From Lepisosteus oculatus (Eukaryota > Chordata > Actinopteri > Semionotiformes > Lepisosteidae), in contig NC_090714.1 in the NCBI RefSeq assembly GCF_040954835.1, positions 6,188,501 to 6,252,500 of the forward strand: a DNA stretch of 64,000 nt. Direction: 5' to 3'. Within the stretch, counting starts at the first letter, position 1, and every line of letters starts with the position of its first letter. A program made the translations under genes and the position numbers. The notes below the pieces were generated by a model, which had not been told where the DNA came from, ran no database searches, and saw nothing but the letters and a program-made list of their open reading frames with translations. Below, piece after piece: positions 6,460 through 64,000 of this stretch.

Positions 6460-10806
<4,347 letters not shown>

Positions 10807-23030: not shown

Positions 23031-23574
23031 AGAGAATGTGCGGTAACCCAGTATATTACATGACACCTTCTCTAATACTAATCATAAGGAGCGACGTGTT
23101 TCCCCATTGATTGCAAAACCAGTCATCCCATCCTCGTCACTGTTCTGTTTTCCAGGCTACACCAGTTCACATTCTATTCACATGCGTCGCTTCTGATTTT
23201 TAAAACTTTATTCTTAAATACTGAACTTCTGTGTGGAATCGTGTCGAGCGGTACGCAGTGAGACGCACTGGTATAAAGGAACTGAAGTGATTCTCTGCCC
23301 AGACACCAGCTGGGGTATAAAACACTCAGATTAACTGAATCGTTCGTGTAAATTTTTTTAAAGTTGTCTTTAGAATTTTGTTTTAAAAAATAAGAAACAT
23401 CAACATTTTTACTTCTCAGACTTCACGTCTGACACTCGAAATACAGGCTCCCTCAACTCTACTGCACATTTTGCTTTATTTGTCATTCGAAAAGATGAAC
23501 AAGTCATGTCCAGTCGCAAAGAAAAAAGAAAAGCGCTTTACAAAGGCTATTCAGTAGCTTTATTGCTTGAAATG

Positions 23575-24060
23575 AGAGTAAACAGGCGAACCGCCTCGTC
23601 TCGGGACTGTGACTTGGCTTTAGTCTGAATAAGAGATGTACATGGCCGATATTTTGCGTGGCCGGCCTGGTGGCTCCGTGGGCTGAACCATCGGACACTT
23701 CTAAAGTTCAGAGAGCAGATCGACTCCCGGAGAGTCTTGTGACTTGAAGTCGAGCCCCGAGCCTCCCCGTCAGTCTGAGACCTAATCCCCGGGTGAAGCT
23801 CTCATGCTGTCGGGGTGAGTTTGTAGAAGGGGCTGTTCTCTACCACGCCGGCCGTTTTGGGGGGCTCCATTTTCGGGGCCTTCCAAAACAGGGAAAATGG
23901 GGGGTTTAAGACCTTTATAAATGCATAGATCGGAATTCAATTCGAAAAAGCAGCCCCTTATACCACTGAGACACCTGCAGGATAGGTGTGGCACTAGCAG
24001 TGAAAGAGAGCTGCAGTCCTGACTAGGAGCGACAGGGGTCTCTCTACAGCACATTTCTCT
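23575..24060. repeat. SINE-like island, unit 1, beside the gene A promoter
   Basis: About 470 bp, much better conserved between the three units than the flanks to its left. It shows Pol III box-like motifs on both strands. Plus strand: TGGCTCCGTGGG (A-box-like), then GATCGACTCCC (B-box-like) about 45 bp later. Minus strand: TCTCAGTGGTATAAGG (A-box-like), then GAATTGAATTCCGATC. Two tRNA-derived SINEs in opposite directions is one reading; an upstream element of gene A is another. A minus-strand frame of 113 codons (23,782-24,123) crosses it. Confidence 0.45.
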
Positions 24061-24298
24061 TGATTCGATCAACCGGCCGCAAGCTAAATGAATCCAGCGC
24101 ACAGCTTTGTAGGAGAATGTCACTGTATTCGGTTGTCTGAAAATCCTTAGCCGTTATATACTTTATGTATGATTTGGTGAGTTCAAGTTTCTATTTATCT
24201 TCATAGCGTGAGTGTTGAGCCCTTATATCCGAGTGTACAGCTGTCATTCAAGAGCCGAGCCCGCCCCCAGAGTGACCTTCCTCAGCGGACACGCCCCG

Positions 24299-26945
24299 TC
24301 CACCTGTTCCACAGGTGCGCCCGGCAAGATGGCGGCGGGGTGAGTTTCTGCTGCGTGAGGTGCGTTTGCGTTTTATTTCTAATTTTCTTAATTTAAAATA
24401 CAAAAACTCAATTTTCACTTTGAGGAAAGTTGGACAAAATGAACTGTTGTTGCAACTTTTGTTAATTTAATTTTTTCCTGTTTAATTTGTGTTTTAGGAC
24501 GCTGAAATGAATGTTCTGTTTGAGCGTGCTCTCGAAGTTTTAGAAGTCTGCGGTCCCATACTATCTTTCGTGTAAGTATGTTTTTATAAGATAAGGTCTG
24601 TTTATTTTATCGAAAAAAGGCTGTAGTTAACCTTCAAACATTTGCTTTCTAAAGTTGGTAGCTGTGAAATCTCCGCTTGTCGGATTCGGGCTATAATAAC
24701 GCTTTCCGCTCCGAAATAATAAAACATTGTAAAGGTTTAATTTAATCATTCGTATGTTTTTTTTATTTCTCCAGGTGAGAAAAACATGTCAAGAACGAAC
24801 CTCCAGTTATGAAAGTGTTTTTCCAAGGTAAGTTCTATTTCTACCTTGCACTCTACTGTTGGAATTCGTGCAACTCGACGAGGCAACACGTATTTCCCGA
24901 CGTTTTAACGCCAGAACGGGTTTATACTGACTATATAACTTCTGCTCCTTTCCTTGTGCTTTTGTTTAATCGAAATTGAAACTCTACGGCGCTGGTTCTT
25001 TTATTTATCTATTGAATCCATTGGGTAAAGACGGATAATACCAACATATTTGCAAGAAGGTTTTCAATGCGTGGAGTTAAATCGAATATGATAAACGCTA
25101 TGAGTGGTGCTTGATTTAAATTTAGAAGTAGAATTTCAAAAATGGTTCTTCCGTAAGGCTGAACGTATTTTTTTTTAAATGGAGTAGTGGGACTGGGTTG
25201 TATCTGAGATCCACACTAAAAGTTACCTAGTGGCTTGTTAGAGCATGTTTGTATATTTCTTTATTGGGGCAGTTTGTTAAAAAAAAGTTAATAGACTTCA
25301 GAACTTCAAGTGAATCGATTCTGCAAATCTTGTTGACTTGATCCTTTTTCTTTTGCCTTCAGTTCTGCGCTCCGACGATCTCCTTTCCAATCCACTCCAG
25401 CAACTCGTCTTGCTTTGGCAAGTTCTTCTTGACAATGTGTGCTTTTCCTTGAACTTTATTTTGATACCCGTGGCTGTAGTGTACCCTTTGTATACCGATT
25501 TGCCTTATTCTTAACCTGAGTGTTTCCTGTAGACTGCTGCTATTGTATTTGCTGTGAATTGTGAAATAAGAACTCTTGATTTCACAGGTGCGCCCGGCAA
25601 GATGGCGGCGGGATGAGTTTCTGCGGCGTGAGGTGCGTTTGCGTTTTAATTCTACTTTTCTTATTTTAAATGCAAAAACTAAAATTTTACTTTGAGGAAA
25701 GTTAGACAAAATGTATTGTTGTTGAAACTTTTGTTAATTGCATTTGTTTCTGTTGAATTTGTGTTTTAGGACGCCGAAATGAGTGTCCTGTCTATTTGAG
25801 CGTGCTCTCGAAGTTTCAAAAGTCTGCATTCAGCCTTTCATGTAAGTATGTTTTTAAAGACATGGTATATCTAGTACTATTTCCTTTAACAAAAAAGCTG
25901 TAATTCATCTTCAGTTATTTTCTGTATAAAGTTAGTAACTGTATCTAATTTAGTATCCCCGCCTTTCGGAATCGGGCTATAATATCGCTTTCTGTTCCCG
26001 AATGATACACCTTAGAAAAGATTAAACGTACTAACTCGTATGTTTTCTTGTTTCTCCAGTTGGCAAAGGGATTTCAAAAACCGGCCTCCAGTTAGAAAGT
26101 GTTTTTTCCGAGGTAAGTTTTATCCTTATCTTCTGCTATACTGTTTATATTTGTGTATTAAAGACGACTCGTATTTCACAGCTTTTTAACACCAGAACGG
26201 TTTTATTTTAAAGTTATCACTTTTCGTTTAGCTGTGCTCTTGCTGAATACAAATAGGAAATACAAAAGCGCTGTTTTTTTATGGATTCTTTTATTCATGA
26301 TAGGCTGAAGCTACTTTCTAGATATTGGAGTAGTGGGACTGGGATGTATCTGTGATTTCTCATGTTGTTACCTATTGGTTTCTTGTTGAATTTGAGCGTG
26401 TTTGTATGTTTCTTAATTCAGGCATCTTATTTGTAAAGTGAATAGACTTCAGAACTTAGTTAATCGATTCTGCAAGTCCGATATCTTGTTAACTTGATCC
26501 TTTTTCTTTTTCCTTCAATTCTGCGGTTCCTGCTGCTTTGCGCTCCGACAATCTCTTTTCCGATCCACTCCAGCAACTCGAGGAGCGTTGGCAGGTTCTT
26601 CTTGACAATGTGTGCTTTTTCTTGAACTTTATTTTGATACCCGTGGCTTGATCTGTAGTGTACCCTTTGTATACCGATATATATTATTGTTAACCTGCAT
26701 GTTTCATGTTGACTGTTGCTATTGTATGTGCTGCGGCTCCTGGTTTTCGGCGCTCCGACGATCTCCGGCAATTGATTGACAATGTGTGCTTTTCTTGTAT
26801 TTTATTTTTGTTACCAGTGACTTGATCTGTAATGTCCCGATTCAGTGCTGTATTTTATTCTTGACCTGCATGTTTTCTGTTGACTGCTGCTATTGTATGT
26901 GCTGTGAATTCTGCAATAAAAACTCATTTCATTGTCTGCATTGTC
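24299..26945 (+). ncRNA. Gene A, unit 1: candidate spliced non-coding gene in two tandem modules
   Basis: Module a exons by splice motif: E1 to 24359 (GTGAG|GTGCG), E2 24498-24571, E3 24775-24827, E4 from 25363. Module b: E1 to 25632, E2 25770-25841, E3 26060-26112, E4 about 26519-26945, with AATAAA at 26915-26920. Each module starts with CAAGATGGCGGC (24,325 and 25,598). Module a keeps a full terminal exon, but its polyA signal reads AATAAG and it runs straight into module b. Module b's E4 acceptor reads CAA instead of CAG, so its usual junction looks broken. ORFs are short: ATGGCGGCGGGG TGA in E1, and an E2 frame that stops soon after the E3 junction. No protein family recognised. This is an inference from splice signals and from conservation among copies. 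Confidence 0.5.
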
Positions 26946-27530
26946 CTGTATTTTCGAAGGTGTGAAGGGCTGTCTTGCAGCGTGCGCCACGCACCGCAAG
27001 GCGACACCCCATCGCACTGACCTGGAAAAGTGCGAAGACGCCCGCCTTTTTAGATAGTCTGGGGGGGGAATAGGGTCCCTAGGAGGGAGCGTGGGTCTAG
27101 CCCTGGGGGGAGGGGAAGGCAGGCTGGAGATGGCCTCGGCCCGAGAGAGAGGAGGCACCCAGGGCGGACTCAGCCCATCAGTCACAGCTTTCTAAGTCCA
27201 CACCCCAGGAGACCTGCCTCTCTGCAGGGACCAAAGCCACCACCAGCCAGCCCCCGCCTACCCCTCTCCAATGAGGGGGGGTGGGCGAGGCTCGGCTTGA
27301 TTGCTACCAGACCCCGAGAGAAACCCCAGATACTAAGTTTTTTGGCGGGAAAATCTGGACACGCTTAAAAAGGGGGTAGCCTTTGACCTTTTCAAGTCAA
27401 AAAGCGATAGGGGGCCCCCTTGCGGCCACAAACTGTTACCAAAATCTCTCCGCCAAAAAACTCACCACCATCGGGGATTTTCAGGGCCAAGCGGGTACAG
27501 AACTCTGCACAAAAAAATGAAAGAACAAAA
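26946..27530. promoter_or_regulatory. GC-rich hub between genes A and B, unit 1
   Basis: Lies between the convergent polyA signals. It holds a 13-bp perfect inverted repeat: AGTTTTTTGGCGG at 27,336-27,348 and its complement at 27,450-27,462, 101 bp apart, each an E2F-like TTTGGCGG site (the left one TTTGGCGGGAAA). A CCAATGA and a GGGGTGGGCGAGG GC box precede it (about 27,267-27,293). Unit 1 lacks a few short stretches present in units 2 and 3. Regulatory function is an inference from motifs and conservation. Confidence 0.5.
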
Positions 27531-28710
27531 TCAAGGTTCAATCAACCATTTATTGAGCGAAAATGGCATACAAAACAAAGCATTACAATACGTCGGATGC
27601 AGAAGCTTCGAAGTGAAAATGGACATGCATTTCAATTACAAAGTGTCAAAAGAGTAAGAAAACATTTGCACGCTACTACAATGAAAAACACAGAAACAAA
27701 CAGGACGTTACTGTTTCTCCGAGGCTTCTGTCGACCGGAATGAAGACTGGACCTTCGTTGCATTTCCTACAAAACAGAAATCAGTATTAGCTGTGCTTAC
27801 ATTATTATATCAAGTGGTATAATAACAGTGTCTCGATTAGATAGAAACTACCACATTCTAATTTATTTGTTAGGATTTCCACATAGATTACATATTATTT
27901 TTCTGAAACAACTTAGATAACACGTGATTAATGCAAGTCTTAGTTTATGTTCGTTTCAATTTTCGGGAGGTACAGTATAAACTGTACTTTAAAACGATAC
28001 GTCTAAACGAATAAAAAGGTTTTCACTTAAATAGATAATCCAAGCAGCTGAGTCAAGCGTGTCCTGTTCGAAGACACCAAACTGGAAACACAAGAACATG
28101 TATTTAAACGAGCAATTAAAGATAATGAAAACCAAGGGTTTCTCGTGTAGAGAAATGAATAAAATGATTATACTTACGTTTATACTTCCATGATTTAGTG
28201 CGACTCATGTCCTCCCCGAAAACACTTAACTAAAACACAAAAAAGCAGAATTTAGAATTTAAAGACCATTGACACAGAAAAGTATCGGTTGGAAGCTAAT
28301 TTTTTACCAGCAATATAAGAACATAAATGTTTCAAAGATTAAAAACTTCACAATTATAGGTAGGCTGTTTTCGGTTCGGATAAATGCACAAAGTTCAAGA
28401 AGTGTTTGATAAAATAAAACATTAAGATAAAGGAACAGACGGAACGCGGCATTCTCGTTCTGCCAATGCAGCAGTGTAAAAGAGAAAGCTTAAATTAAAA
28501 CATGCTACTTAGCTCCCAACGAAAATACGTGTTTTACCCCTTTCTCCTGCGAAGCTTAGACTATATAATTTATTTTAATTTTATCTACGTTCAAATAAAA
28601 GAAAAATAAAAAAAGAATCACAAAAGACGCGGAACAAACTCACTCAGCTCCGCTCTCTCCAGCAGAACCTGGCGCACAGGTGCGTGGGGCGTGGCCTGCG
28701 AGAGATGTCA
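27531..28710 (-). ncRNA. Gene B, unit 1: candidate spliced non-coding gene converging on gene A
   Basis: Minus-strand exons by motif: E1 from about 28710 to 28644 (GCTGA|GTGAGT), E2 28229-28178 (acceptor GTGTTTTAG, donor GTAAGTATA), E3 28081 to about 28031, E4 27766 to about 27531 with AATAAA at 27549-27554. The E3 donor, GTAAGT in unit 2, reads TTAAGT here, so E3 may be skipped. Two CACCC/KLF-type boxes (GGGCGTGGC on the plus strand, about 28,687 and 28,720) mark a likely promoter. From the E2 ATG the frame reads MSRTKSWKYK, but units 1 and 2 differ by frame-changing indels in E2 and E4, so a protein is unlikely. Confidence 0.45.
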
Positions 28711-29755
28711 TTCGAGTGGGCGTGGCTACAGACTTACGGGCCAGGTAGCTTTTTCCGTGGCTCCACATAAAAACATGTGGACGAAATCGAGCATGTTTAC
28801 AAAAAACCCTTATGTGTTACAAGTTTCAAAATCCTTTTTTTCATGGCCATCTGAGTAATCACAGTTTGCACATTTAATCCTTAGTATTTGAGAGCCACAG
28901 GAATGTGAATGAAAGAATTTAGAAATATGTAGTGGAGCTATGGGGTCTAAAGTTCTTTGCAGGAGACTTACTGTTCTATAACCTGATCTATCTTAAGGAT
29001 ACATCAAGAAGTCAGATGTTTTCATCAATAACTTACTACCTTTGTACTTCTTATTAGACATTCTGCTGATGTGTTCATTTATGAAGTTACAAGAACATGA
29101 GAAAACTCAAATGAGAGGACAGTATTCAATCCATGTAGCCCTTTTGGTTACCTGTATTAGATTGATTTGATAATCTCATGCAGCCATTGCTCGAAAGAAG
29201 ACAGGCTGCCGGTCTCTACAAAATGGCTGGATCACCTGTGCCATTCTCCTACAACTCCTGGTGTAAAGAACTTTTAAATACACTTCCTCATGACATCTTT
29301 TCCCTTGATTCATATCAAAGTAGTTCACACTGTTTTACAACAACTGATTTTATTTAAGCCATTAGCATAATTGTCAACACTAATGCACTGTACTGAAGCA
29401 CATAATACATTCAGTTGAATTCAAATTTCTCAACCTCAATGCAACCTCATTTCTCATTTCATTCTCCTTTGCGATCCATCAGCTGAGAACACCATTCCTG
29501 TCACAGCAGGCATCGACAAGCATTTTGACGTAGGAAGAGTTCAGTTTAAGAGTTAAGATCACAAATATAAGGTATATACAGGAACCATAATCAAATAATT
29601 ATCTTTCTCTCTTAATCTACTTCTGAAATAGAAGAACACACTCCTGATAACATTCAAGGACACATTTCTCAAAGCAATGTAAAAGAATACCTCAAAGTAT
29701 GCCTTCATCAATTTCCCTACGGGATCCATAAAGTCTTACCTATCTAAAGGCTTCT
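28711..29755. other. Array spacer between B and C, unit 1
   Basis: AT-rich, homologous to 46,120-46,610 and 50,280-50,455 in unit 2. No ORF or RNA that I can support. Confidence 0.4.
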
Positions 29756-30030
29756 GTAGGAACCTGACATTTTGGCTCAAGCCCAGGCTATGGTGCTTTT
29801 CTGAGCCAAGATGGCTTCTGAGCAGGCAGTGATCTGGAAACAGGTGTGCACTATTGAGCTGGACCCACCTGGGCATTCTACATGAGGATTGTAGGGCTTT
29901 TGCGATTGGTTCCTATGGAATTAGCCACGCCCATTTAATCTATGAGGAGACCTATAAAAGTGAAGCTTGAGCAGAAAATGTTTAGTGTGGGCTTTGAATT
30001 GGAGAGAAAATGAGAATTGTTAATTGTGAG
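29756..30030 (+). promoter_or_regulatory. Promoter-like block C, unit 1
   Basis: A conserved block with a YY1-type core in an imperfect palindrome (CAAGATGGC at 29,807-29,815) and, 146 bp on, a TATA box (TATAAAA at 29,953-29,959). After the TATA, GTGAAGCTTGAGCAG and GCTTTGAATTG are shared with unit 2. This looks like a Pol II start site; no exon chain can be followed from it with confidence. Confidence 0.45.
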
Positions 30031-30214
30031 CTGTATATTTCTTTGTTTGGTCAAATGGCTTGGACAAATTAATTAGAACACTGTTACTGAAGCTAACTGA
30101 TCATTCTGTATGTTGTTGCAGCAAAGATGAGATTCTACAAGAGCTCCTTTCCAATGGGCTAGGTTTGTGGGGTCCTGAGGAAAGTGGTATACCAGGAAGA
30201 GCCCAGTTGCAAAC

Positions 30215-30345
30215 CCAGCTTGACACTGCTGCACAGGCAGTGGGGAGAGATCCCTGTGCTGACATCCCAGGTAGGGCACTGCTGTACATGGCTCAGCTGT
30301 TGAAATTGAAGGTACCTTGAATAAAAGCATCAGTCTACCACCCCA
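30215..30345 (+). repeat. Decayed tRNA-type SINE, unit 1
   Basis: The CCCAGGTAGGGCACTGCTG block and the ATAAAAGCATCAG tail recall the common fish SINE tail (GGATAAGAGCGTC...). The 86-codon frame over it is fortuitous and is not kept in unit 2. It is shared with unit 2, so the insertion predates the long duplication. Confidence 0.5.
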
Positions 30346-31512
30346 GCCTTTTTGTGCTACAGTGAGCTTCCTCACCTCAATATCTTAACTTGACAAGTGT
30401 GTAATGGTGATGTCTCATCCTGAGAGCCCACTGCATGTAGTATGGGGAATTGGTCATGTAGCTACTTTCCTTCAAGAAATGGAGGTGCACTGTACCTTTT
30501 TCTCCTGCCTGGTTCCCTGTTGATCATGAGGAGGGGGAATAGACTGGCACCCGCTCTCCACCAGGAATTTAGTGTCCTCAATATGGCATCTGTGATGTGG
30601 AGCAAAGCTGGTCTGTATGCTGATCCTCTACCCTTCTGTCATGTCCTTGACCCTGATCTTGTAACAACTGTATTGTCTGTAAAATAAAGTGAAGGTGTCA
30701 CCAGGAGTCTTCTGTACAGTCATTAATTTCAGTGAACTGTCCTCCAGTGCCATGGTCCTACTGAATCTCTGCTTTGACAACTGAAGATCAGTGGTAGCAC
30801 AGTACTTGATCATGGTACCTACAGGGTCAGCTTTTCTTGTGCAACAGGGCCACCTGGTGGTAAATGTTTCTTAACATGGCTAATGAGGGGAAGGTACTAT
30901 TTGTTCTTGGAGACAAATCCCACCTTGTAGTAAACGAGATGGTTATGCCAGCTTCTTTCTCCAAAGGTGTGGAGTAGCTTAACTGGCCTTCCTCAATGTG
31001 TAAGGATCCTGCCATGAGCCTGGCTGGGACCCTTCAACTTTTAAAGGTTCCCTTTCTGCAGAAGGCTGGACTGAAGGCAGGATCTCCAGATCTCATCCTG
31101 AAAGCCACCAATGAAGGTGGTCATGAGTCACGTCCTATCTCCTCAGGAGCACTGAGTGGCAAATATGCCATTCTGTAATCTAGATTGCTCACTTAAATTC
31201 TTCTAGTTTTTGTTGCAACCCTTTCATAATTTTACATCACTTGGGCAATTACTCCAGGTCCCTAAGTAATCCAATACTCACGTGTAGCACCTATTGTGCT
31301 CAGGCTCCCCAAAAGCAAGGTTAAGAGTCTTGGCTTAATCTAGAGCATGTACAGCTGTGCTACTGAAGTGCAATGATAGCATGCATGCATGTATTCTAGT
31401 TACTTATTTGATGTATCTGCTGTGTGATACATGGCAGAGTTGCTGTACATCCATAGATATTTTGCTTAATGTCTTCACATTCAGCTTTGTGGAGCTGGAG
31501 GAAGGCATGTAA

Positions 31513-31655
31513 TTATTTGGGAACAAGTAATAGGTTTATTTCATGTTAAGAAATAACATTTTGGCTGTGGAGTCTTCTCAGCATGCAATAAACCTATAAC
31601 TTGTTCCTTTGCAGCCTACAGATGCTGATGTAGCTACCCACCTGTAATGACTTGG
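31513..31655. repeat. Foldback (MITE-like) repeat inserted in unit 1 only
   Basis: The arms GAACAAGTAATAGGTTTATT and its near-complement AATAAACCTATAACTTGTTC flank a core with TTTTGGCTGTGGAGTC. Unit 2 has an empty site (CATGTAATGTTAATACAG near 52,590), and the unit 1 copy is flanked by GTAAT on both sides, a likely target duplication. Same family as 16,185-16,320. Confidence 0.6.
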
Positions 31656-32149
31656 TAATTTAACCAAAGCAGAATGCAGGGGATTTCATGTCACTTCACA
31701 TGCAGGAATGTATTAACGTTTCAGAACCTAATAGTCTAATCTTCATAATTGAAAGGGTTTTATCCCATTATCATTTCACTACTGCACAAAACTGAAGCAC
31801 CACCTACAGAAAGGACCTATTGGCAGGAACTGAGTTTATCTGTCATCGAAATGCAGCAGTATCTGATGAGATGTGCCAATATACCCTCGACTAGGTAGAA
31901 AAATGAGAAATTAAGTGAATGAGAACCATTAAGAAGCCCAGGTTGTTTGTCTAGACAGGAATTTACCCAGGACTCAGGGGTTAAAATCCCTATATTTAAT
32001 ACGTTATGGACCTTGCCTAAACAAGTCATCCAAACGATTGAACCTCTGACAGCAGGGGGTAAGATGGAAGAGCACCACTTACAGGTTTCTTCCTGTAACA
32101 GCCTGGACTTCCAGGTTCTTTATCAGTCATGAGTAGACGCAGACGTGCT

Positions 32150-32410
32150 TAATGAGAGATCAGGCTCTGGGGTAGTAATACTGTTGCTTATTTTTTTCCA
32201 CATCCGCTTCTTGACGGAAGAGGTAAGGTGTTTTTATTGGACAAAGCTCAGAAGCCGGAGAGCCGCTCGATTGTCTGCTGGGTGGCGAAAGCACCTGTTT
32301 TCTTATTGGTCAGTTGTTCATAAACTAAAGAGCTGTCTCTATTGGTCAATAAGAGGAGGCGTCTATTCAATTCCTATTGGCCAAATGTAAGGAGGCTGAT
32401 CAGCCAATCA
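32150..32410 (+). promoter_or_regulatory. NF-Y (CCAAT) cluster, unit 1
   Basis: Five ATTGG/CCAAT pentamers in about 170 bp: 32,236, 32,305, 32,341, 32,376 and (as CCAAT) 32,403. Three are shared in place with unit 2. A strong Pol II promoter-like layout. In unit 1 the exon it would serve is 1.5 kb away because of an insertion at about 32,365-33,935. Confidence 0.55.
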
Positions 32411-33935
32411 TATGGCTTTCTAGGTAACCCGTGAGAAGGGTAGATGACGATCATCATACCTCTTTGAAAATCGTCATACACTCCTCTCTGAAAGAGGATA
32501 TGTTTGACGTGCCTGAAAATACAGAAGTAGTAGAATTACAAAGACACAATTTGTTTAAATTAAATAGAAGGCAACCTTCTGTCCTCTGGGACATTTTTAC
32601 GTCTTCATAAATACTCTTAGCATTATAATGACCACGAACGAGTTAAAGCAGAGCTCTTATAATTATCATGTTTGATAACAGAATCCACCTTTAGCAAATG
32701 TTGTGGGTGTGGGTATGTGGATGCGTATAAAAGTTTCTCGTATGTATCTTGTATATTTTTTTCGTCCGCTGTGGACGTTGTTTTTAGTGCAAACTCGTCG
32801 GTTTCGGTTTAACTTCAATAAGAGATAAGAGCCTTGAGCTGTGTGTTACTGTGACCGAGAGGTGCGGTCGTCACAGTGTGTACATATTGCGCGTAATTTT
32901 AACAGTGTAGGACTCAGTCAGTGTTTCTGTGGTCACTGAAGCTGGAGAGACTGTTTTAGATTTTTAACTGTAACTTCTAATGTATAACTAACACTAAATC
33001 AAGTAAATGCATTGAAAAATAAGTAAGAAGTACGTCATTTAAAAGCTAAGAAATGTTTAAAATGAATAAAATGTTTTTGCATGTTTACCCTAGTTCCGTT
33101 ATTAATTCATAAAAACAATTTAACGATGTCAGCTGTCGCCTACACTTGAAGCAGGCTTGGACATTCATGCAGAAATTAAAAAATTGGAACAGTCCCTTGG
33201 ACGTCCTGGGATACAGCCACAGTACAAACACAAGACACGAAATTAAGAAAACCCAGACTCCTCCATAACAGGAAGATTGAGCATAGCTTGGCCAGGATGT
33301 TCATGCAGAATGCCAAGATTTGCACCAAGAGCGTGCATGTGAATTGAGAGAATTTATACGTGTGGCAATGTTGACTTTCTAATGAGAGAAACTGAAACTC
33401 ATTAGTGTTCAGTTGCTCATGAGAGGGCTCTATCCAGTTTTAATCGAGTGTGTGCAGTGTGGTTAATTCCAGACCAGATGGTTTCTTCTTCTGGGAAGGA
33501 GAGATCCTGCACTCTGAGGTCGCTGGAGGACACAGCTGACACAATGCAGGTAGGAATATCTCGGTTCTGCCGGCACACAGCCTGTGTTTTACAGTCCACG
33601 TTCTTTTGCACAAAACACCCTGCCAGACGTCAAGCACTTTGTAAAGTAACAGCTCTTCCCTTGTGTATTCTTGTCTCTGTCATGATCATGGGGCCACTGT
33701 CCTTCTCCAACAGTGTCTGGATGTGAACTGGATTCTCCAAGTATCACTCTGTCCACCTGCTTCACTGGTAGAATGTGTGAATGTTCCTGTAAAATGGTTT
33801 TTCATGGAAGGTAAACTTTTGATGTTTGGTTTCTCATCACTTTATTCTGTACTATGCATCTCTGTTTTTATAACTTTTGTGATGCCACTACAGGCACTGT
33901 ACTGAATGAGAGGTACTTTAAGACGAGTGTCATAG
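32365..33935. other. Unit 1-only insertion in block D
   Basis: Absent from unit 2, where AAGAGGAGGCATCT runs directly to the exon D leader. The content is mostly unrecognised. A TATA-like GTATAAAAGT near 32,727 and a GTCGTCACAGTG end near 32,880 could be a solo long terminal repeat, but I cannot show both ends. Open frames at 33,448-33,905 have no domain. Confidence 0.35.
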
Positions 33936-33962
33936 ATTTCACTGACTTTTGACCTCATTAAG

Positions 33963-34119
33963 ATGACAGAACAGAGGTACTGCAACACATGCCACGATGA
34001 AAGAAGTGAAACAAGACACAGGTGTGCTCCAACCTGCAGGCCATATAAATTGAACCCAGGGATGACAGAGAGTAGAAACTGAAGCCAAGCTGCACACAAA
34101 CTACAGCCGACTGTATTTG
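33963..34119 (+). CDS. Exon D, unit 1: candidate 39-residue small ORF
   Basis: ATG at 33,963 and stop at 34,080-34,082, followed by a donor TATTTG|GTGAGTATG (exon end 34,119). The peptide has YCNTCHDERSETRHRCAPTC, a CxxC...CxxxC spacing, then RPYK. Compared with unit 2, ORF start and stop are in equivalent places, and the length differs by two whole codons. Many substitutions change residues, and unit 2 lacks most of the Cys. Hypothetical; no family recognised. Confidence 0.25.
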
Positions 34120-50240: not shown

Positions 50241-50455
50241 TCTGACGGAGGAAGAGGAAGAATACTGGGTAGGGATGCAGAAGTGGTTTAAGAGTTCATC
50301 ACAAATCTGTATATATATAAGGAATATATATAAACCATTACGAAATCATTATCTTTTTCTACTAAACGATTTCTAAAACAGATTGAGGTATGGTGAAATG
50401 TTTAGGAACTAATAACGTTCAAGGAAAATTGATTAAAGCAATGTTGCACTGTCCC

Positions 50456-50735
50456 TAGAAAGCTTCTGTAGGCACCTTGCATTTTGGCTCAAGCCCAGGC
50501 TGTGGTGTTTCTCTGAGCCAAGATGGCTTCTGAGCCGACAGGGATCTGGAAACAGGTGTGCACTATCGAGCTGGACACACCTGGGCATTCCACATGAGGA
50601 TTGTAGGGCTTTTGGGATAGGTTCCCATGGAATTAGCCCAGCCCCTGTAATTAACGAAGAGGCTTATAAAAGTGAAGTTTGGGAGGAAAGTATTTATGTT
50701 GTGCTTTGAATTGAAGAGGAACATGAGAATTATTC
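50456..50735 (+). promoter_or_regulatory. Promoter-like block C, unit 2
   Basis: Same block: CAAGATGGC at 50,519-50,527 and TATAAAA at 50,665-50,671, with the same 146-bp spacing. A donor-like CAGT|GTGAGTTTT follows at about 50,737. Confidence 0.45.
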
Positions 50736-53149: not shown

Positions 53150-53345
53150 CAAGGTAGTAATACTATGTTTTCTTTTTCCAGATCTGCTTCCTGACTGAAG
53201 AGCTGAGGAGTTTTTATTGGCAACGTTTAGAACCCAGAGCCACACTCTGTCAACTGGTGGCTGGAGTACCTCTATCTCCTATTGGTCAGCTGTTCGTATA
53301 CTGAGGAGCTGTTTCTATTGCAAGCTTTATTATTGGTCAATAAGA
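53150..53345 (+). promoter_or_regulatory. NF-Y (CCAAT) promoter, unit 2
   Basis: ATTGG at 53,216, 53,281 and 53,332, plus a decayed ATTGC at about 53,317. It lies 40-160 bp before the ATG of exon D, ending in TTGGTCAATAAGAGGAGGC, which is also present in unit 1. Confidence 0.6.
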
Positions 53346-53378
53346 GGAGGCATCTCTGAGACTTTTGATCTCATTAAG

Positions 53379-53541
53379 ATGGCGAAACTGAAGTACTGCA
53401 ACATAAAACACCGCAATAATGATCGAAGTGGAACAAGACAGAGCAGCGCTCGTACCTGCAGGCCATATAAATCAAACTCAGAGATGAGAGAGAGTACAAA
53501 GTGAAGCCAAGCTGCACACAAACTACAGCTGACTGGATTTG
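53379..53541 (+). CDS. Exon D, unit 2: candidate 41-residue small ORF
   Basis: ATG at 53,379 in AAGATGGCG (YY1/TISU-like), stop at 53,502-53,504, donor GGATTTG|GTGAGTAC with exon end at 53,541. The peptide is basic (MAKLKYCNIKHRN...) and shares YCN, RTCRPYK and ES with unit 1. It lies directly downstream of the NF-Y promoter, so transcription from here is plausible. Coding status is unsure: it may be the first exon of another non-coding RNA. Confidence 0.3.
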
Positions 53542-53829
53542 GTGAGTACATGATTTCCCATTTGGAAAAGAACATAGAGAACGTGTTGGAAGACAACAGG
53601 AAAACAAAGACTGTGTATGTAACTAAACCATAGCAAAACAAAGAAAGGGCAGGGGTAGAAGAGAGAAGAAGAAAAAAAAGGTAAAGAAATAATCAATAGC
53701 AGATAGTATAAGATAAAAAAGTAAAAAACAGACCTTTTGATCTGACACGCCTTTAACTCACCAGATCGGGGACTCCTTTCTGTTTCTTTATGACCTCGCT
53801 ACCTGCCATGGGAGTTTGGGCAGGCGTTT

Positions 53830-54045: not shown

Positions 54046-57000
54046 AATCCAAAAAGAAAGAGCAGGAATTCAAACCTATAATAGATTGAGAGGGGAAAGT
54101 GATTCAGAGGAATATATAGGAAGAATTGAAACATGATAAAAGAGATTATAATTCCAAGGTGGAGAAAGTAATGAATAGAAATAATGTACAGGAGGCGTGG
54201 CGTAGGATCTAAACCATGATTGGCCAGGTGCCCCTTAGAAATGGGAGCTGGCTTGAGCACACACCCCAATATGTAAATGAACTGAATTTTTTTTGCTCTG
54301 TTCGAGAGTAGAGAACTAGGAGAACCTATTTTTAACAATGTGATTGTCCCCACTGGTGTGTCTCCTTTTACTGTAACATCTAAACAAGTGGAGTGTGTGT
54401 TTTTTGTGTTTTAAGGACTCGTAAATGAATGTGCCTGCAAAATCTGGAAGGCAATACTTTGCAAAAATGAACAAGTCATGAAGAGCTTAGTCCTGTATTT
54501 TATAAATTATTCCAAAAGTCACTGGACATATATACAGTTCTGAGTTTGTGGAAGACATCTGCACATTTGCATAACTCTAGTTAAAAACTGAAAGTGGATG
54601 AAAAAAAGGGAAAGATAAAATAGCACACATAGTTACTTTTTGAATTCAAGAAGGGAGGTTTGTACGGGTAAGAAGGCATGATTGGATCTATTTTTGAGGG
54701 AGAAATTGGACAGATTTTTCTTCCTTTGAGAAGAAATGTATTTTTTCATATGGCTACATTATCTGTTTGCCAGGGTGTTTTGGAGACAAGTCGCTCTGTG
54801 TTTGTTTGTTTTATTTTATCAGGGTAGACCTGTTTTTAACTGCTATTTGCCTCAGGTGTGTTCTGGTCTTGGGTTCCATCTACTGATCAACCTTACAGAT
54901 GCCTGTAACCCCCGCGGCATCACACTTTCATTTAGTTTACATGGAATACTTATTACCTAAGAGCGACGTGTTTCAATCTGAGATTTAGCTTTTTTATTTT
55001 AAATAGAAAGCCTGACATTACTTTCACTTTCCTATTTTCACAGCAAGAGTCTGGCCTCCTGGAGACTCCTGTTGAATTCGCTCTCGGCCTGTTCTCACTC
55101 CTCCAGCTGGTCTGTCACCCCTGAGGCTGGAGGAAGGGCTCTCCTGTGGGTGAAGTGTCCTGGGCTCCTGTGGGCTGGGCAGTACTTCATCAGCTCAGGT
55201 GCTGGAGGATATTACAGAGCTAAAGGTCTTAGGTGGCACTGTTCCCTGTGGCCCATAATGTCCATACCAAAGCCCCAGTACAGAGACTCCTGGAGTGAAC
55301 TTAAAATATCCTGGGCCCTACAGCGCTCAGACAGGTCATTTCACCTCAAACTCGTAAAGGTATACCTGAGCTTCACGATTGCTGAAAGGTAATTTTACAT
55401 GCTCCTGGACTTGTACTAAGCATGTCACTTCCAGCCTTACCTGATGCAGCTCTAGCTGAGATCAAATCTTGTTATGGACATGAATGGTATGATTTGAGAG
55501 CCATGTCATCCTAGCAGAAACCCATCACTGACACTTGTGCTATTATTATAGACAGCTTTAATTGGTTTCTATCACAGTTATTTAAGACAACATTTTACAT
55601 ACAGCTATATAATTAATCATAGATAATGATTGAACAATAGGCTTTGTATTGATTCTATTTTCCTCTGGGCTTGAGCAACTGTCCCTCCCTGCTGCTGACA
55701 ACCCAATTCTACAGAAAACCTGTCATGAGTTGCTTTGAACTGTGGGAAATCTGTTTGTAACTGCACTTAAATGTGTGTATCTGTATGTATATAGGAGCAG
55801 AGTAAAACTAGTCAGGTGAAGGCCAGAAACTGAGTACTACAAATGGATGTTGGGCACATTGTTAGGACTGATTTTTAGGCTCATGATTTTCAATATCAAT
55901 TACTATACATGAAGCAGACTATGGTTTCATAGCAGTTTTGCTTCTACAGTAAGTAGCCATGTCACAGTGAAATCTGTTTTCATATTTGTTAGTAGAAGAC
56001 TGATTGTATTTCTATATTATGTAACACTCAACAGTGCTGATGATCACAGGCCTTTCCCCTACGTTCTTGAGCTGGGGGGATCATGAGGACCACCTGGACA
56101 CTCAACACAGTCTGCAGCCTCACCTGCATGAGAGGTCATTCTGAACAGCAGGTTCTTACGTCATTGAGAGGGAGTTTTGATGTAGGATTTTGTCTTTCAG
56201 GGGTTTAAAATATGTCACATCCCTAATTCTTTTAAGAAAGGTTGATATGAAAATGTTGGAATTGTTATGAAAACAACAGAGTGATCATTTTATACACATT
56301 CTCTGTTTTCAGTAACAGCTTTGCACCTGGAGTAACAAATGTTGAAAGTTGTATCTCTTCATGTCTCTTGTTTTTCAAGGAATCAGTGGATAGTTTAATG
56401 TTTCATGTTTTCTTTTGTGAAAAAAAGGAAATGTAAACTAACTTTGTAAGCAAACAAAGAATAGTTTTCCTTCTGAAATGTCTTTTTCTGAGTAAACTTC
56501 CAGTTTCTTTCATTGTGTCTATGCTGTGGGGACTAGACAAATCTCTCAGAGACCAGGATAGACTTTAAGATTGATTTACATTTGATATGTTTTTGTCCTA
56601 AAGTAGTAAACAGTAAATATTTTAAAGAAGAACTGCCAAGGTGAATTCTGCTTCCTGCAGATTAAAAGTTTATTCCTTTTTGAATGTTCAAAATGATTTT
56701 TTTTTTTCACTGATAGTTAAACAGTTGAAGAGTTTTAGTGTTTCTTCTTTGAAATATACGCACATCTTAATCCTTGGTTGTTAAATTGCTTTAGTTATTT
56801 AGTCTGTTCTCAAAATGCTTTCTTAAATGTGGAATGGTGTTCAGAGCTATTGTGTTGTGAAGCAGATTGTGGGTATGTGTTATTGCATCACACAGGTGAT
56901 AATTAACCATCTAGTGCTCTTTCAAAGGACAGTGTGCTTTTCTCATACAGTGCTGTGATCACTGTTCTTTCATGGTGTTCTCAGCCACAGGAAAGCACAT

Positions 57001-57540
57001 TAAACATCTCTGCTGGCTTTACATTCTCTCTCAAATCCCTGCTAATCACACACTGAATATTTCTACACAAAACACTTTCGGTTAATAGTGGAGTCTCTTG
57101 TCCCTTCTGGGTCTCAGGAGTCAAGCTGCAAGCAGGACTCGGCTCTGAGCTGAACCTGCCCATTGCCAGAAGCAGGCTGGGCAAGAGCAATATTCACTTC
57201 GAGAGAGCTATGACATTAGGCAAATGCCTCTACAGAATTATTTTACCAACATCAGTTGTACAATCAAGCAGTTGCTTGACCACAGGCTACATGCCTTTGT
57301 GTACATTTGAGCAACAGCTGGAGTTTTACAGGCAAAGTGCAGGGAAGAAGCTTGTGCAACAGCTACCATGGATGAAGATGAAGCACCTTAAAGTCATGAC
57401 TGAGTGGCACTCTGAGCAGCCTGAAGGGGTAAAGGAGACAGATGCAGGCTCATTAAAGATACAAGAGGCTGATCTTATGTGGAGGCTCACTTCCAACATG
57501 ATGTGATCCAAGATACCCAGACAAATTGGTTTAAAGAAAC
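54046..57540. other. Array body, unit 2, no gene recognised
   Basis: From about 54,840 on it aligns with 35,330-38,220 of unit 1. 54,046-54,840 is unit 2-specific or too diverged to place. No conserved frame. Confidence 0.4.
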
Positions 57541-57544
57541 AATC

Positions 57545-57835
57545 CAAAGACTAGTTTATTGTAAAAATCGAAATAGAAACAGTACAGGTGTAACACGACC
57601 GGCTGTTATCCAGACGCTCCGGCGGCCCGCAGTCTGGAGCCCCAGGAGAGGAAACGTTTCAGTCAGGACAGCCGGCCGGAGAGACGGTGGCCACCCGGGA
57701 CTGCGAGGTGAATGCGGCTGGTCTCCGGGATCAACTGCTGCTGCTTGAACAGGGGAGAAAAAGCGTTTCTAATACATATAGGCGCAAGTTCTGGCCTCTC
57801 GCCAAAGACAATACAAAGGTAGCACCTGTTTTTTA
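57545..57835 (-). ncRNA. Block E, unit 2: minus-strand terminal-exon-like GC-rich segment
   Basis: Counterpart of 38,221-38,490, with TTTATTG at about 57,556 (AATAAA on the minus strand). It carries an extra stretch (GGCCACCCGGGACTGCGAGG) inside the GC-rich core, which is not a multiple-of-three match with unit 1. Confidence 0.25.
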
Positions 57836-59195
57836 AAATAACCTATTTATTCGCAGGGAGGTGTTCAACGGAGCGCAACCATATTTCCCCCACCCTCAGA
57901 TTAAGTGAGCGCAGCTGTGGGTTTCTTCATCACATTCTATTGCTTTACCATACTGAGAAAAGTCCATTGGTCCTGGGATTTCTCCGACTACGAACACAAA
58001 GGTCTCTTTAAACCCGAAAGCAAGAGGCTCTGTAAGCAGAGTGCAGACCGGTTGGAGTCTCGCCTTCGAACTGACCGCTCATCTGTCCGATTTCACGCCA
58101 CACGGGAGCTCTGCGCTTCGGCAGTCAGGCTGTTGTAGAGGACAGGAAGTCTGGGAAGCTGAAGAGGAGAAACTAGTGAATAAGACACCTGCTGAAACAC
58201 CAACAGACCCGAGAAAGCATTAAAAATACAGGTAGCCATTTTAAATAGTAACAATAATCCGTTCTATTTCGCCTGTTGAAAAAGATACGAAAGTTACTGG
58301 TTCAGTTTGAATTCAACGTCTCTTTCAAAGCCAGTTACTGTCCGCCTTCTTAATTATTCTGATGCTTTCTCTCGTTTCGTTTTGAACTGTTCCCATCCAC
58401 ATATGAAGCAAATTTGACCGACATTCTCCTAACCAAATAAAGCAAAACATCCCGGGAGAATTTTCCTGTCGCCGCAAAGCCGCCATTTAAGGACAAAGAC
58501 GCAATACTCCTGCCAGAACCATTTTAAAAGGACACTAATTGAAGGCGGATAAAGATTGATCACACCTAACTGTGGACTGTTAATTAATTAGACATGTCTA
58601 AAACACGGACTGGATCCTGGAGTTGACATGGATCCCTCAGTCTTTCCGACACAAGTAACTGGAGTCAATCCCGTTCCATACTTTTAACTGAACCGCTGAT
58701 GAAATAACCTTATCGAAACTTTAATTGAGGATTTACGATTTGTGTTCAGTGTAATTCAAAATACTATATCCATCCCCATCTACCATCAATCGTAAAAGGT
58801 TAGAAGTTAGCGACACCCTTGCGCCCGAAACAGTGTTTCAGAATTCCGTCTTTTGGCTTTGGGTCAAGCAGTAAGAATTATACTGTTAGTGTTTGACAGT
58901 CAGTCTCACCTGTGATTACTGTACTGTGATTACTGTACTGCACGTCACTCACTGACCGTGGTTCCCTTTTCACTGTAGAACCCGTGTATACAGTGTGGAA
59001 CACGATATAGACTTTTAATGACTTTTTAAAGTAATCAAAATGAATTTGCATCTTTTCGAGACACTTACAGTATCAGTTAATATAAAACTCTGTTTCCACT
59101 ACTTCATTGCCAGCGGTCTGCTATTCATAAACAGCACTTTCACCACCTGCACTCTGTGCATTTGACTGCATTTTGACTACAATAATTTTCACATA
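57836..59195. other. Array spacer after block E, unit 2
   Basis: Aligns with 38,491-39,885. It holds a short direct repeat TGTGATTACTGTACTG (about 58,912-58,941). No gene seen. Confidence 0.35.
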
Positions 59196-59579
59196 TTAGG
59201 GTATATGAAGTAATAGCGTCTCTAATAGTAATAATAAGGAGCGAAGTGATGCTTCATTGATTGCAAAACTTATTTTATTACATCCTTGTCACTATTCTGT
59301 TTTCTATGCACACACCAGTTCACTTTCTATTTACATCCATTGCTTTTGATTTTTAAGTCTTTCATCTTAAAACTTCTATGTGGAACCTTGTCAAACGCCC
59401 ATGGAAATATAAATATATTATGTCGTGACACCTGCTGTTTTTAAGGAACTGTAGGGATATTCTGCCCGGACACCAGCTGGAGTACAAAACATATAGACCG
59501 ATTTAATCGTCCATGTAGTTTTTTTTAAGTTGTCTTTAGAATCATTAAATACATTTTGTTTAAAAAATAATGCTTGATG

Positions 59580-60085
59580 AGAGAGCAAACAGGTGGAACT
59601 GCCTCGTCTCGGAGCAATGACTTGGCTTTAGGCTGAATAAGAGATGTACATGGCCGGTATTCTGCGTGGCCGGCCTGGTGGCTCCGCGGGCTGAACCATC
59701 GGACACTTCTAAAGCTCAGAGAGCAGATCGACTCCCGGAGAGTCTTGTGAGTTGAAGTCGAGCCCCGAGCCTCCCCGTCAGTCTGAGACCTAATCCCCGG
59801 ACTGAGACCTAATCCCCGGGTGAAGCTCTCATGCTGTCTGGGTGAGTTTGTCGGAGTGGCTGTTCTCTACCACGCCGGCCGTTTTGGGGGGCTCCATTTT
59901 CGGGGCCTTCCAAAACAGGGAAAATGGGGGGTTTAAGACCTTTATAAATGCATAGATCGGAATTCAATTCTAAAAAGCAGCCCCTTATACCACTGAGACA
60001 CCTGCAGGACAGGTGTGGCACTAGCAGTGAGAGAGAGGTGCAGTCCTAACTAGGAGCAACAGGGGTCTCTCTCCAGCACATTTCT
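59580..60085. repeat. SINE-like island, unit 3
   Basis: Third copy. It has a small direct duplication of ACTGAGACCTAATCCCCGG near 59,782-59,819. The minus-strand frame is open for only 70 codons (59,809-60,021), because the upstream part is closed by a stop, which argues against a conserved protein. Confidence 0.45.
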
Positions 60086-60327
60086 CTTGATTCGACCAGC
60101 TGGCCGGAAGATAAATGAGTCCGGCGAACAGTTTTGTAGGGGAATGTCACTGTATTGGGTTCTCTGAAAATCCTTAGCCTTTAAATACTAAATTTATGAT
60201 TTGGTGAGTTCAAGTTTCTATTTAGCTTCAGTAACGTCAGTGTTGAGCCCTTGTAACCGAGTGCACAGCTGTCATTCAGGAGCCAAGCCCGCCCCCAGAG
60301 TGACCTTCCTCAGCGGACACGCCCCGT

Positions 60328-62995
60328 CCACCTGTTCCACAGGTGCGCCCGGCAAGATGGCGGCGGGGCGGGTTTCTGCGGCGTGAGGTGCGTTTGCGTT
60401 TTATTTCTAATTTTCTTATTTTAAATACAAAAACTCAAATTTCACTTTGAGGAAAGGTAGACGAAAATGTATTATTGTTGCAACTTTTGTTAATTGCGTT
60501 TGTTCTTGTTTAATTTGTGTTTTAGGACGCCGAAATGAGTGTCCTGTCTGAGCGTGCTCTCGAAGTTTTAAAACTCTGCATTCAGCGTTCTTATACTACC
60601 TTTCATGTAAGTATGTTTTGTAAGATAAGGTCTGTTTCTTTTAACAAAAAAAAGCTGTAGTTTATCTTCAAACATTTACTTCCTAAAGTCAATAGCTGTG
60701 TATTCTCTCCTTTTCGGATTCGGATGTAATAACGCTTTCTGCTCCGAAATTATCAAATATTGCAAAGATTACATTTACTAATTCGTATGTTTTTTATTTC
60801 TTCAGGTGACAAAAGCATTTCAAGAACGGGCCTCCGGCTAAGAACGTGTTTTTCCCAAGGTACGTTATATTCCTACCTATACGTTTTAATGTTATACTTG
60901 TGTAACTCGATAAAACACGTGCTGACTAGTACAATATAACTTCTTTTCGTTTTATTGTGCTTTTCTTGCATCGAAAAAGAAACTCGAAACGCTGGTTCTT
61001 TTATTCATCTATTGAATCCATTGGATAAAGATGGATAATACAAACATTTCCACGATGCTTTTCAATGCGGGGAGTTAAGTCTAATATGGTACACGCCATA
61101 AGTGGTACTTGATCTTGAATGTATAAAGTAACATTTCAAAAATGATTTTTCTATATGGCTGAATGTGTTCTCTAAATCCTGGAGTCGTGGGACTGGGATG
61201 TATCTGTGATTTCTCTTGAAGTTTCCTATTGCTTTTTTAGACAATTTGACATGAGCGTGTTTGTGTATTTGTTTATAGGGGCAACTTATTTAAATCGTTG
61301 AGACTTCGGAAAGTCAAGCGATTCGATTCTCCTAATCCGATATCTTAACTTGATCCTTTTTCTTTTGCCTTCAGTTCTGCGGCTCCTGGTTCTCCGCGCT
61401 CCACAGGTGCGCCCGGCAAGATGGCGGCGGGGCGAGTTTCTGCGGCGTGAGGTGCGTTTGCGTTTTATTTCTAATTTTCTTATTTTAAATTGAAAAAATC
61501 AAATTTCACTTTGAGAAAAGTTAGACAAAAATGTATTATCGTTGCAACTTTTGTTATTTGCGTTTGTTTCACTTTAATTTGTGTTTTAGGACGCCGAAAG
61601 AGTCTTTTGTCCGTTTGAGCGTGCTCTCGAAGTTTTAAAGATCTGGATCCAGCGTTTTTATACTGCCTTTCATGTAAGCATGTTTTATTTAAGATATGGT
61701 ATCTCTAACTCTGTTTCCTTTAACGAAAAAAATGCTGTAATTTATTTTCAAACATTTGCTGTATAAAGTCAGTAGCTGTTTAATCTCTGCTTTTCGGATT
61801 CGGGCTATAATAACGCTTACCGCTCAGAAATGATCAAGTGTTGTAAAGATGAAATTGACTAATTCGTAAGTTTTTCTTTATTTCTCCAGGAGACAAAAGG
61901 ATTTCAAGAACGGACCTCCACTTATGAAAGTGTTTTTTCCAAGGTAAGTTGTATTTCTACATTCCGCTAACACTATTTGTGTAAAACAACACGTATTTCC
62001 AAGCATTTTAACAAAAGAACAGTTTTATACCAACTTGATAACTTTTTGTTTCATTCTTCTTTTGTGGAGTAAACTCTAAGGCGCTGGTTCTTTTTTATGA
62101 TACATTTATTCATCTTTTGAATTCATTATGTAAAGATAGATAATGCCAACACATTTTATCGATGGTTTTTAAAGCAGTTTATTCGAATATTATACACGCT
62201 GTGTTACCTGGTCTTGTATTGACAAGTAGCATTGGATTTCTATGTGGCTGAACGTATTTTCTAAATATTGGACTCGTAGGACTGAGATGCATTGGTTTCA
62301 TTTGAGTTTTTTTTATATTTCTTTATTTAGGTAGCGTATCTAAGTTAAAAGACTTAAGAACGTCAAGTGAATCGTTTCTGCAAGTCCGATATCCTGAAGT
62401 AGTGGGATTGGGATGTATCTGATTTTCTTCCTAAAGTTGCCTATTGGTTTGTTATAGAATCTGAGCATGTTTCTATAACTATCAGTTAAAAGACTTCAGA
62501 ACTTCAAGTGAATCGATTCTACAAGTCCGATATTCCGTTAACTTGATCCTTTTTCTTTTGCCTACAGTTCTGCGGCTCGTTCTCTGCGCTCCGGCGATCT
62601 CCTCTCCAGCTCCACTCCAGCAACTCGACGAGCGTTGGCAAGTTCTTCTCGACAATGTGTGCTGCTTCTTACATTTGATTTTTGTTACCAGTGGCTTGAT
62701 CTGTAGTGTACCCTTTGTATACCGATTTATGTTATTGTTAACCTGCATGTTTCCTGTTGACTGTTGCTATTGTATGTGCTGCGGCTCCTGGTTCTCTGCG
62801 CTCCGACGATCTCCAGCAATTTATTCTCGACAATACGTGCTTTTTGTTACATTTGATTTTTGTTACCAGTTGCTTGATCTGTAATGTCCTGATTCAGTGC
62901 TGTATTTCATTCTTGACCTGCATGTTTTCTGTTGACTGCTGCTATTGTATTTGCTGTGAATTCTGCAATAAAAACTCTCATTTCACTGTCTGCAT
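60328..62995 (+). ncRNA. Gene A, unit 3: candidate spliced non-coding gene, seven exons
   Basis: Exons by motif: E1 to 60387, E2 60526-60606, E3 60806-60859, chimeric 61375-61451, E2' 61590-61673, E3' 61890-61943, terminal 62568 to about 62995 with AATAAA at 62967-62972. CAAGATGGCGGC lies at 60,353 and 61,417. Almost identical to unit 2. One change matters for coding: E2 lacks a 4-nt stretch present in unit 2, so from ATG 60,535 the frame stays open over E2 and E3, giving 35 codons (MSVLSERALEVLK... ending FQERASG). No other copy keeps this frame, so it is probably chance. The terminal exon is slightly shorter than in unit 2, with one internal repeat fewer. Confidence 0.55.
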
Positions 62996-63636
62996 TGTCC
63001 TGTATTTTCGAAGGTGTGAAGTGTTGTCTTGCAGTGTGCGCCACGCACCGCAAGGCGACAACCCATCGCACTGACCTGGAAAAGTGCGAGGACGCCCGCC
63101 TTTTTAGATAGTCTGGGGGGGAATAGGGTCCCTAGGAGGGAGCGTGGGTCTAGCTCTAGCCAAGCCCCCTCACTCCCAGCAGGAGGGGAAGGCAGGCTGG
63201 AGATGGCCTCGGCCCGAGAGAGAGGAGGCACCCAGGGTGTACTCAGCCCATCAGTCACAGTTGCAACTGACAGTTTTCTAAGTCCACACCCCAGGAGACC
63301 TGCCTCTCTGCAGGGACCAAGTGGGCCTGGCTAGAGCTGCAGTCAATCAGCCAGCCCCCGCCTACCCCTCTCCAATGAGGGGGGGTGGGCGAGGCTCGGC
63401 TTGATTGCTACCACACCCCGAGAGAAACCCCAGATACTAAGTTTTTTGGCGGGAAAATCTGGACACGCTTAAAAAGGGGGTAGCCTTTGACCTTTTCAAG
63501 TCAAAAAGCGATAGGGCGTCCCCTTGCGGCCACAAACTGTTAGCAAAATCTCTCCGCCAAAAAACTCACCACCATCGGGGATTTTCAGGGCCAAGGGGGA
63601 ACAAAACTCTGCACAAGAAATGAAAGAACAAAATCA
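62996..63636. promoter_or_regulatory. GC-rich hub between genes A and B, unit 3
   Basis: Essentially the same sequence as unit 2 with the inverted pair at 63,440-63,452 and 63,554-63,566 and the same 101-bp spacing. Confidence 0.5.
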
Positions 63637-64000
63637 AGGTTCAATCAACAATTTATTGAGCGAAAATGGCATACAAAACAAAGCATTACAATATGTCGGA
63701 TGCACAGGCTTCGAAGTGAAAATGAACATGCATTTCAATTACAAAGTGGCAAAGCACGGCTACATTAATGCTAAATACTGTTACAAGTTAACAGAGTAAG
63801 AAAACATTTGCACGCTACTACAAGCAAAAACACAGAAACACACAGCACGTTACTGTTTCTCCGAGGCTTCTGTCGAGGCAGCGACCTGAATGAAGACTGG
63901 AACTTCATTGCAATTCCTGTAAAACAACGGAAATCAGTATTAACTTTCGGTTACAAACAATCTCGAAATGATCCCAGCTAGTTAGACCGAGCTTCTGTAT
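63637..64000 (-). ncRNA. Gene B, unit 3: terminal exon only, cut by the window edge
   Basis: AATAAA on the minus strand at 63,652-63,657 and the terminal-exon acceptor at 63,917-63,918 (exon upper border 63,916). It retains a block (about 63,667-63,730) that unit 2 has lost and unit 1 keeps. Confidence 0.45.

Follow-up and report, generated by a model that had tools for sequence, protein, structure and literature searches.

Ribosomal DNA (rDNA), 5S and histone arrays consist of tandemly repeated units with conserved promoters, and E2F-type elements recall S-phase genes. The long non-coding RNAs (lncRNAs) Firre and Xist carry internal repeats and are single-copy genes in mammals. FAM230 is described as an annotated family of long intergenic non-coding RNA genes within the low copy repeats of human 22q11.2 (PMC6162681). 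Here we analysed a 64,000-nucleotide stretch of the gar Lepisosteus oculatus (C19:6188501-6252500, contig NC_090714.1; hereafter the window, numbered from its first letter), together with 40 kb to its left, 100 kb to its right and the genome of 1.2 Gb in 813 contigs. The window contains an array of three units, A, B and C, which belong to a family with 67 or more loci spread over six chromosomes. This family looks like a set of undescribed RNA genes, not junk or an assembly error, and no description of it was among the entries listed in a literature search limited to open-licence papers.

An array of three units within a larger family

Self-alignment of the window revealed three collinear head-to-tail units on the plus strand, seen as direct repeats offset by ~16.8 kb between A and B and by ~19.1 kb between B and C; successive units lie 16.9 and 19.2 kb from one another. 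Unit A (23050-34365) extends from the start of the A-B similarity through the final A-B match, unit B spans 35364-53800, and unit C begins at 54873 and runs past the window end at 64000 to ~66,418. Between B and C, 40429-44788 matches 59568-63959 at 95% identity and 35364-40257 matches 54873-59570 at 69%; the latter segment, the plus-strand upstream block of unit B, is also common to C19 and C26 loci. Between A and B, 23050-25373 matches 39889-42231 at 82%. Smaller spacer blocks on the plus strand keep their order as well: 29747-30030, with AAGATGG and TATAAAA, matches 50459-50743 at 85%, and 33944-34365, with AAGATGGC and GGTGAGT, matches 53360-53800 at 79%. The three units are 18-30% different from one another outside one tract of ~4 kb common to B and C, which is mostly 97-100% identical with a few lower, gapped stretches and looks like gene conversion. 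No further full unit was found in the 40 kb to the left or the 100 kb to the right.

The initial annotation of this DNA had proposed a 17-19 kb head-to-tail array with conserved block order and fixed internal spacings, forming a cluster next to JMJD8. The repeat offsets bear out the array, and both spacings are present in the sequence, with the inverted E2F-like pair ~100 bp apart in unit A and the YY1-like AAGATGG ~145 bp from TATAAAA. A local tie did not survive, as the units belong to a family spread over six chromosomes. JMJD8 was not confirmed by the open reading frames (ORFs) tried.

The family was counted by a pattern census that allowed up to 3 mismatches and by design misses copies with more. 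Motif names (YY1, E-box, E2F, B-box and so on) were assigned by readers, without a motif database. The 52-bp YY1/E-box promoter-like block (plus strand; 24287-24338 in A, 41156-41207 in B, 60315-60366 in C) was found at 67 places (36 plus, 31 minus), 35 of them perfect and none with more than 2 mismatches, with 36 on C19, 18 on C26, 8 on C27, 3 on C20 and 1 each on C21 and C2. The 45-bp E2F-like block (plus strand; 27337-27381 in A, 44329-44373 in B, 63441-63485 in C) was found at 63 places (33 plus, 30 minus; 37 perfect), on C19 (36), C26 (18), C27 (7) and C20 (2), and one 3-mismatch variant of it is common to 17 of the 18 C26 copies. Reversed controls for both blocks gave 0. Every one of the 63 E2F-like blocks lies downstream of a promoter copy on the same strand, at a distance of 1640-3193 bp (median 2117). 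Four promoters, on C20, C21, C2 and C27, lack a partner at this threshold; the C2 and C21 copies share kilobases of collinearity with the window units, and the C21 E2F-like block is altered yet recognisable. Collinearity with the window units also extends to the copies on C20, C26 and C27, some of which carry an insertion of ~40 bp between the two E2F motifs.

Searches with longer segments gave 110 matches for 23050-25373 (40 of 103 candidates scored) and 117 for 35364-40257 (40 of 108 scored), all on C19, C26 and C27; both counts are lower bounds. For the 29747-30030 spacer block, 38 of 40 matches (40 of 46 candidates scored) had a family promoter on the same strand no more than 20 kb away, with exceptions on C26 and C16, and the same held for 26 of 31 matches of the 33944-34365 block, with exceptions on C26, C3 (two), C5 and C8. 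The C3 relatives of the latter (C3:71579501-71583500 and C3:64560001-64564000) are old and weak, at ~66-69% identity, and lie outside the family chromosomes; the further matches on C5 and C8 are weak too. Among 24 neighbour pairs less than 60 kb apart, 16 have both members on one strand, including 13 pairs spaced 13-20 kb. Longer segments are thus present in several copies, partly in tandem, as in an lncRNA family arising by duplication.

Some arrangements differ from the tandem one. At C19:5.45-5.49 Mb, ~0.75 Mb away, an inverted array is 97-98% identical to parts of units A and B, and is read as a recent inverted duplication. At C26:3903101-3913100 two units with E2F-like blocks form an inverted repeat in which they point toward one another, its arms 97% identical over ~1.1 kb, and two more C26 neighbour pairs face likewise at 14-16 kb.

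Constraint on the blocks

Aligning 12 copies drawn from three chromosomes left 581 of the 934 columns over 23540-24420 without variation. The longest such run, of 46 columns, falls in the YY1/E-box promoter-like block; in 2000 shuffles the longest run averaged 13 columns and never exceeded 31. Mean pairwise identity among these copies reached 92-96% in the islands, compared with 75% and 86% for two intervening stretches. Copy bodies compared on other chromosomes were mostly 62-82% identical, one C26 copy reaching 86-88%. Because the 52-bp block is kept at 0-2 mismatches in 67 places despite these diverged bodies, selection rather than conversion is the favoured explanation; conversion alone would not easily account for such retention.

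Two further elements lie upstream of the promoter-like block on the plus strand. The 59-bp B-box-like block (23669-23727 in A, 40537-40595 in B, 59677-59735 in C) has 27 genome copies at up to 3 mismatches, all on C19, and a reversed control of 0. A candidate conserved hairpin in unit A (~23852-23892) was more stable than column shuffles in two overlapping windows among 42 (z -3.9 and -3.6), and its pairing is preserved through changes in a C27 copy; we treat it as a lead only.

Predicted transcription units and signs of transcription

Two convergent transcription units, TU1 and TU3, are predicted in each core. In unit A, the plus-strand TU1 includes predicted exon 2 (24498-24571; acceptor AG kept in 15 of 15 copies, donor GT in 12 of 15), predicted exon 3 (24775-24827; acceptor in 14, donor in 13 of 15) and a predicted terminal region (25363-26920) made of repeated modules of ~170 bp. 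This region contains a second promoter-like copy near 25580-25612 and closes with AATAAA at 26915-26920, accompanied by a conserved downstream element. The minus-strand TU3 (27549-28750) has a GC-box promoter-like start at ~28640-28750 and a minus-strand AATAAA at 27549-27554.

Germline transcription and absent methylation leave marks of strand skew and CpG preservation. Measured against a null of 46 flank windows of 2.5 kb, T exceeded A on the plus strand in all 7 chosen TU1 stretches (z +3.6 to +5.9), and A exceeded T in all 7 chosen TU3 stretches (z -2.7 to -3.9), the latter scores being somewhat overstated because the null windows exceed the TU3 stretches in length. The ratio of observed to expected CpG was 0.87-0.88 in the three cores, with TG/CA at 1.00-1.05, and 0.31 and 0.24 in the spacers of A and B, with TG/CA at 1.29 in the one spacer measured. 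Windows of 1 kb with a CpG ratio of at least 0.8 numbered 14 of 44 in the array versus 8 of 115 outside. Together, CpG preservation and strand skew point to transcription of the units, as expected of convergent germline-active units, and the marks may well arise from germline transcription and lack of methylation.

Splice-site retention is a weaker signal than these. The splice dinucleotides are kept in 54 of 60 cases, all six losses falling in three copies (L035, L037 and L040), and exon 2 (0.89) exceeds intron 2 (0.79) in conservation, the promoter standing at 0.99. Several observations speak against the inference of transcribed, spliced units. Retention among background dinucleotides is 73%, and conservation in 14 or 13 of the 15 copies is matched by 27% or 43% of positions, respectively; neither exon 2 nor exon 3 (0.82) rises above intron 1 plus the remainder of exon 1 (0.91) in conservation; and the apparent exon 1 donor GGTGAGT survives in just 5 of 12 copies. 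The skew stretches were chosen by hand, and the G-C skews, of the expected sign in 14 of 14, are small, within ~1-2 standard deviations of background. The CpG ratio is uneven within the core, falling to 0.57 in the E2F-like block, 0.37 in 27000-27260 and 0.13 in 23946-24060. Moreover, the skew and CpG observations are not independent, because the copies have common ancestry. With splice-site retention modest and the exons not clearly above the introns, splicing of TU1 is no more than plausible.

Coding potential and known RNA families

No convincing excess of synonymous change was found in 562 windows of 40 codons from 305 alignments (top synonymous fraction 0.67) or in 8862 windows of 22 codons, where only 2 isolated places reached 0.75. 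The mean synonymous fraction was 0.21-0.22 in all six frames, so that no frame was favoured among the paralogues. The positive control was weak: diverged paralogues that we take to be MYADM-like (65% identical) gave 0 of 120 windows at 0.75, although their open windows gathered in one frame (48 of 120; mean 0.34 versus 0.08-0.26). No coding signal was detected in the window units or in the copies on C20, C26, C27, C2 and C21. In Pfam searches of 30 of the 128 listed ORFs of at least 80 amino acids, one family scored above its cut-off, a reverse-transcriptase fragment (RVT_1) of a long interspersed nuclear element (LINE) at 49733-50287, on the minus strand inside unit B. A LINE of presumed Rex1/Babar-like type was noted. 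No histone coding sequence was found among the same 30 ORFs.

At gathering thresholds, Rfam placed no family inside the units anywhere in the window; two 5S matches (1444-1562 and 19419-19538, minus strand) lie outside them. Over 22800-30000, the only three matches at E≤5, to mir-615, ceN114 and SNORD98, were all far below gathering and were rejected. A tRNA was rejected also, as ARAGORN found none in the window and the B-box-like block was judged by hand pairing unable to form a T stem, and so was a micro-RNA cluster, for which strong hairpins are present yet no Rfam match. A virus origin was discarded after 0 matches in IMG/VR for two exact patterns, a weak test. Inspected by eye only, the C2 and C21 singletons and the two weak C3 matches revealed no recognisable gene that might be an ancestral coding gene.

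As judged by these tests, the units are non-coding, with no sign of encoding protein. The earlier statement that no ORF is retained therefore holds by the codon tests, the Pfam searches adding the reverse-transcriptase fragment only. The accompanying claim of multi-copy non-coding transcription units stands for the copies and for the kept promoter-like and poly(A) signals, but fares less well for splicing, where sites are only modestly retained and conservation fails at one proposed donor.

Interpretation and alternative explanations

We consider that, with a probability of about 0.58, this is an old family of segmentally duplicated loci, each with at least two convergent non-coding transcription units of RNA polymerase II (Pol II). 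Old segmental duplications would have spread a locus in which TU1 starts at the YY1/E-box promoter and ends at its AATAAA signal, TU3 starts at the GC-box promoter and ends at its own, and an E2F-type element sits between the two 3' ends. YY1-, E-box- and E2F-type elements, presumably bound by the corresponding factors, would drive the units, the cores would be free of methylation and active in transcription in the germ line or early embryo, and either the transcripts or the act of transcription may be under selection. As to role, our best guess is that the loci would supply RNA or keep a chromatin domain open in dividing germ-line or embryonic cells. A bolder version is possible though doubtful, in which the family forms a dosage-amplified RNA gene system with a logic like that of the genes for histones or rRNA. 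Its loci, 67 or more and concentrated almost entirely on a few small chromosomes, would carry E2F-linked, germline-unmethylated convergent non-coding pairs, with near-letter-perfect promoters and bodies diverging by up to a third, and would supply RNA or a chromatin state for rapidly dividing germ-line or embryonic cells.

The main rival, which we regard as unlikely but well worth weighing, holds that the blocks are DNA-level elements, such as insulators, enhancer hubs or replication-linked sites, which bind YY1/E2F-type factors, any RNA being incidental. Conservation is indeed much higher in the promoter and E2F-like blocks than in the predicted exons (0.99 versus 0.82-0.89), and the E2F motifs are arranged as an inverted pair; however, the kept AATAAA and downstream elements and the kilobase-long T/A skew, opposite in sign on the two sides, fit transcription better. 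It seems improbable that the loci are instead leftover regulatory and 5' parts of an earlier protein-coding family, with coding exons now missing or located elsewhere. Promoters of AAGATGGCGGC type are common at housekeeping genes and the predicted splice sites are lost in 3 of 15 copies, both of which would suit such remnants, yet dozens of near-perfect promoters are unexpected for dead genes and the coding signal is missing from the units and from the copies on the five other chromosomes.

Sources other than an old gene family carry still less weight. A large transposable or otherwise mobile element, which dozens of copies, several of them isolated and two on otherwise empty chromosomes, might bring to mind, is very unlikely: 65 of the 67 promoter copies are confined to C19, C20, C26 and C27 (16-18 Mb each) instead of being dispersed genome-wide in the manner of a transposon, 13 neighbour pairs are in tandem at 13-20 kb, and the 30 ORFs searched with Pfam contain no transposase or polymerase except the one LINE fragment. 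We give least credence to an assembly artefact, in which haplotypes or a single copy were placed repeatedly. The inverted C19 array, so similar to A and B where compared, would fit it, but the other compared copies, found on several chromosomes, are 12-38% different from the window units. It is likewise unlikely that one copy was falsely duplicated, given the 18-30% divergence among A, B and C beyond the 4-kb tract and the related copies on six chromosomes.

Neighbouring sequences

Left of the array, the sequence at 7170-7436 is a TPR exon whose match to CHIP/STUB1 chains reached 3e-35; the score of an engineered TPR protein was higher, and the assignment to STUB1 is supported. Further left, outside the window, three membrane-protein ORFs (about -10380 to -850) are presumably MYADM-like. 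The closeness of the units to STUB1, and to any JMJD8 gene, is probably incidental, because members of the family lie on six chromosomes. Repeats with 5S rRNA-like sequence at 1003-1562, 18980-19538 and 8367-8501 are probably 5S-derived short interspersed nuclear elements. Immediately right of unit C, a long CpG-poor run of evenly composed tandem repeats (~67243-104000) has one frame open for 3.7 kb (67243-70947), containing a short peptide repeat. Beyond it, an isolated 198-bp fragment (108292-108489) that shares 98% identity with the beginning of unit A lies beside a CpG-rich stretch at 107-110 kb, and an ORF at 120292-120981 is presumably pentraxin-like.

Significance and comparison with known systems

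Dozens of diverged paralogues in one genome amount to a natural mutagenesis experiment, in which the constraint on promoter, E2F-like block, hairpin and exons can be compared and ranked with no need of an outgroup. Should the loci prove to be transcribed, they would form an unusually large lncRNA gene family, and it would become testable why an RNA gene was amplified and retained on a few small chromosomes.

Like rDNA, 5S and histone arrays, the gar loci are repeated units with conserved promoter-like blocks and E2F-type elements; unlike rDNA, they are far more diverged and contain no Rfam family at gathering. The ~170-bp tandem modules of the TU1 terminal region resemble Firre and Xist in general description, whereas those single-copy mammalian genes contrast with the many copies here. 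FAM230 is the closest documented kind, being a segmentally duplicated non-coding RNA gene family with some members beside antisense genes (PMC6162681). This likeness too is one of general description; FAM230 transcripts are annotated (PMC6162681), while transcription of the gar units is inferred. Compared with FAM230 as described there, the gar family has more loci, at least 67 on six chromosomes, with bodies mostly 62-88% identical, and is distinguished by near-invariant promoter-like and E2F-like blocks.

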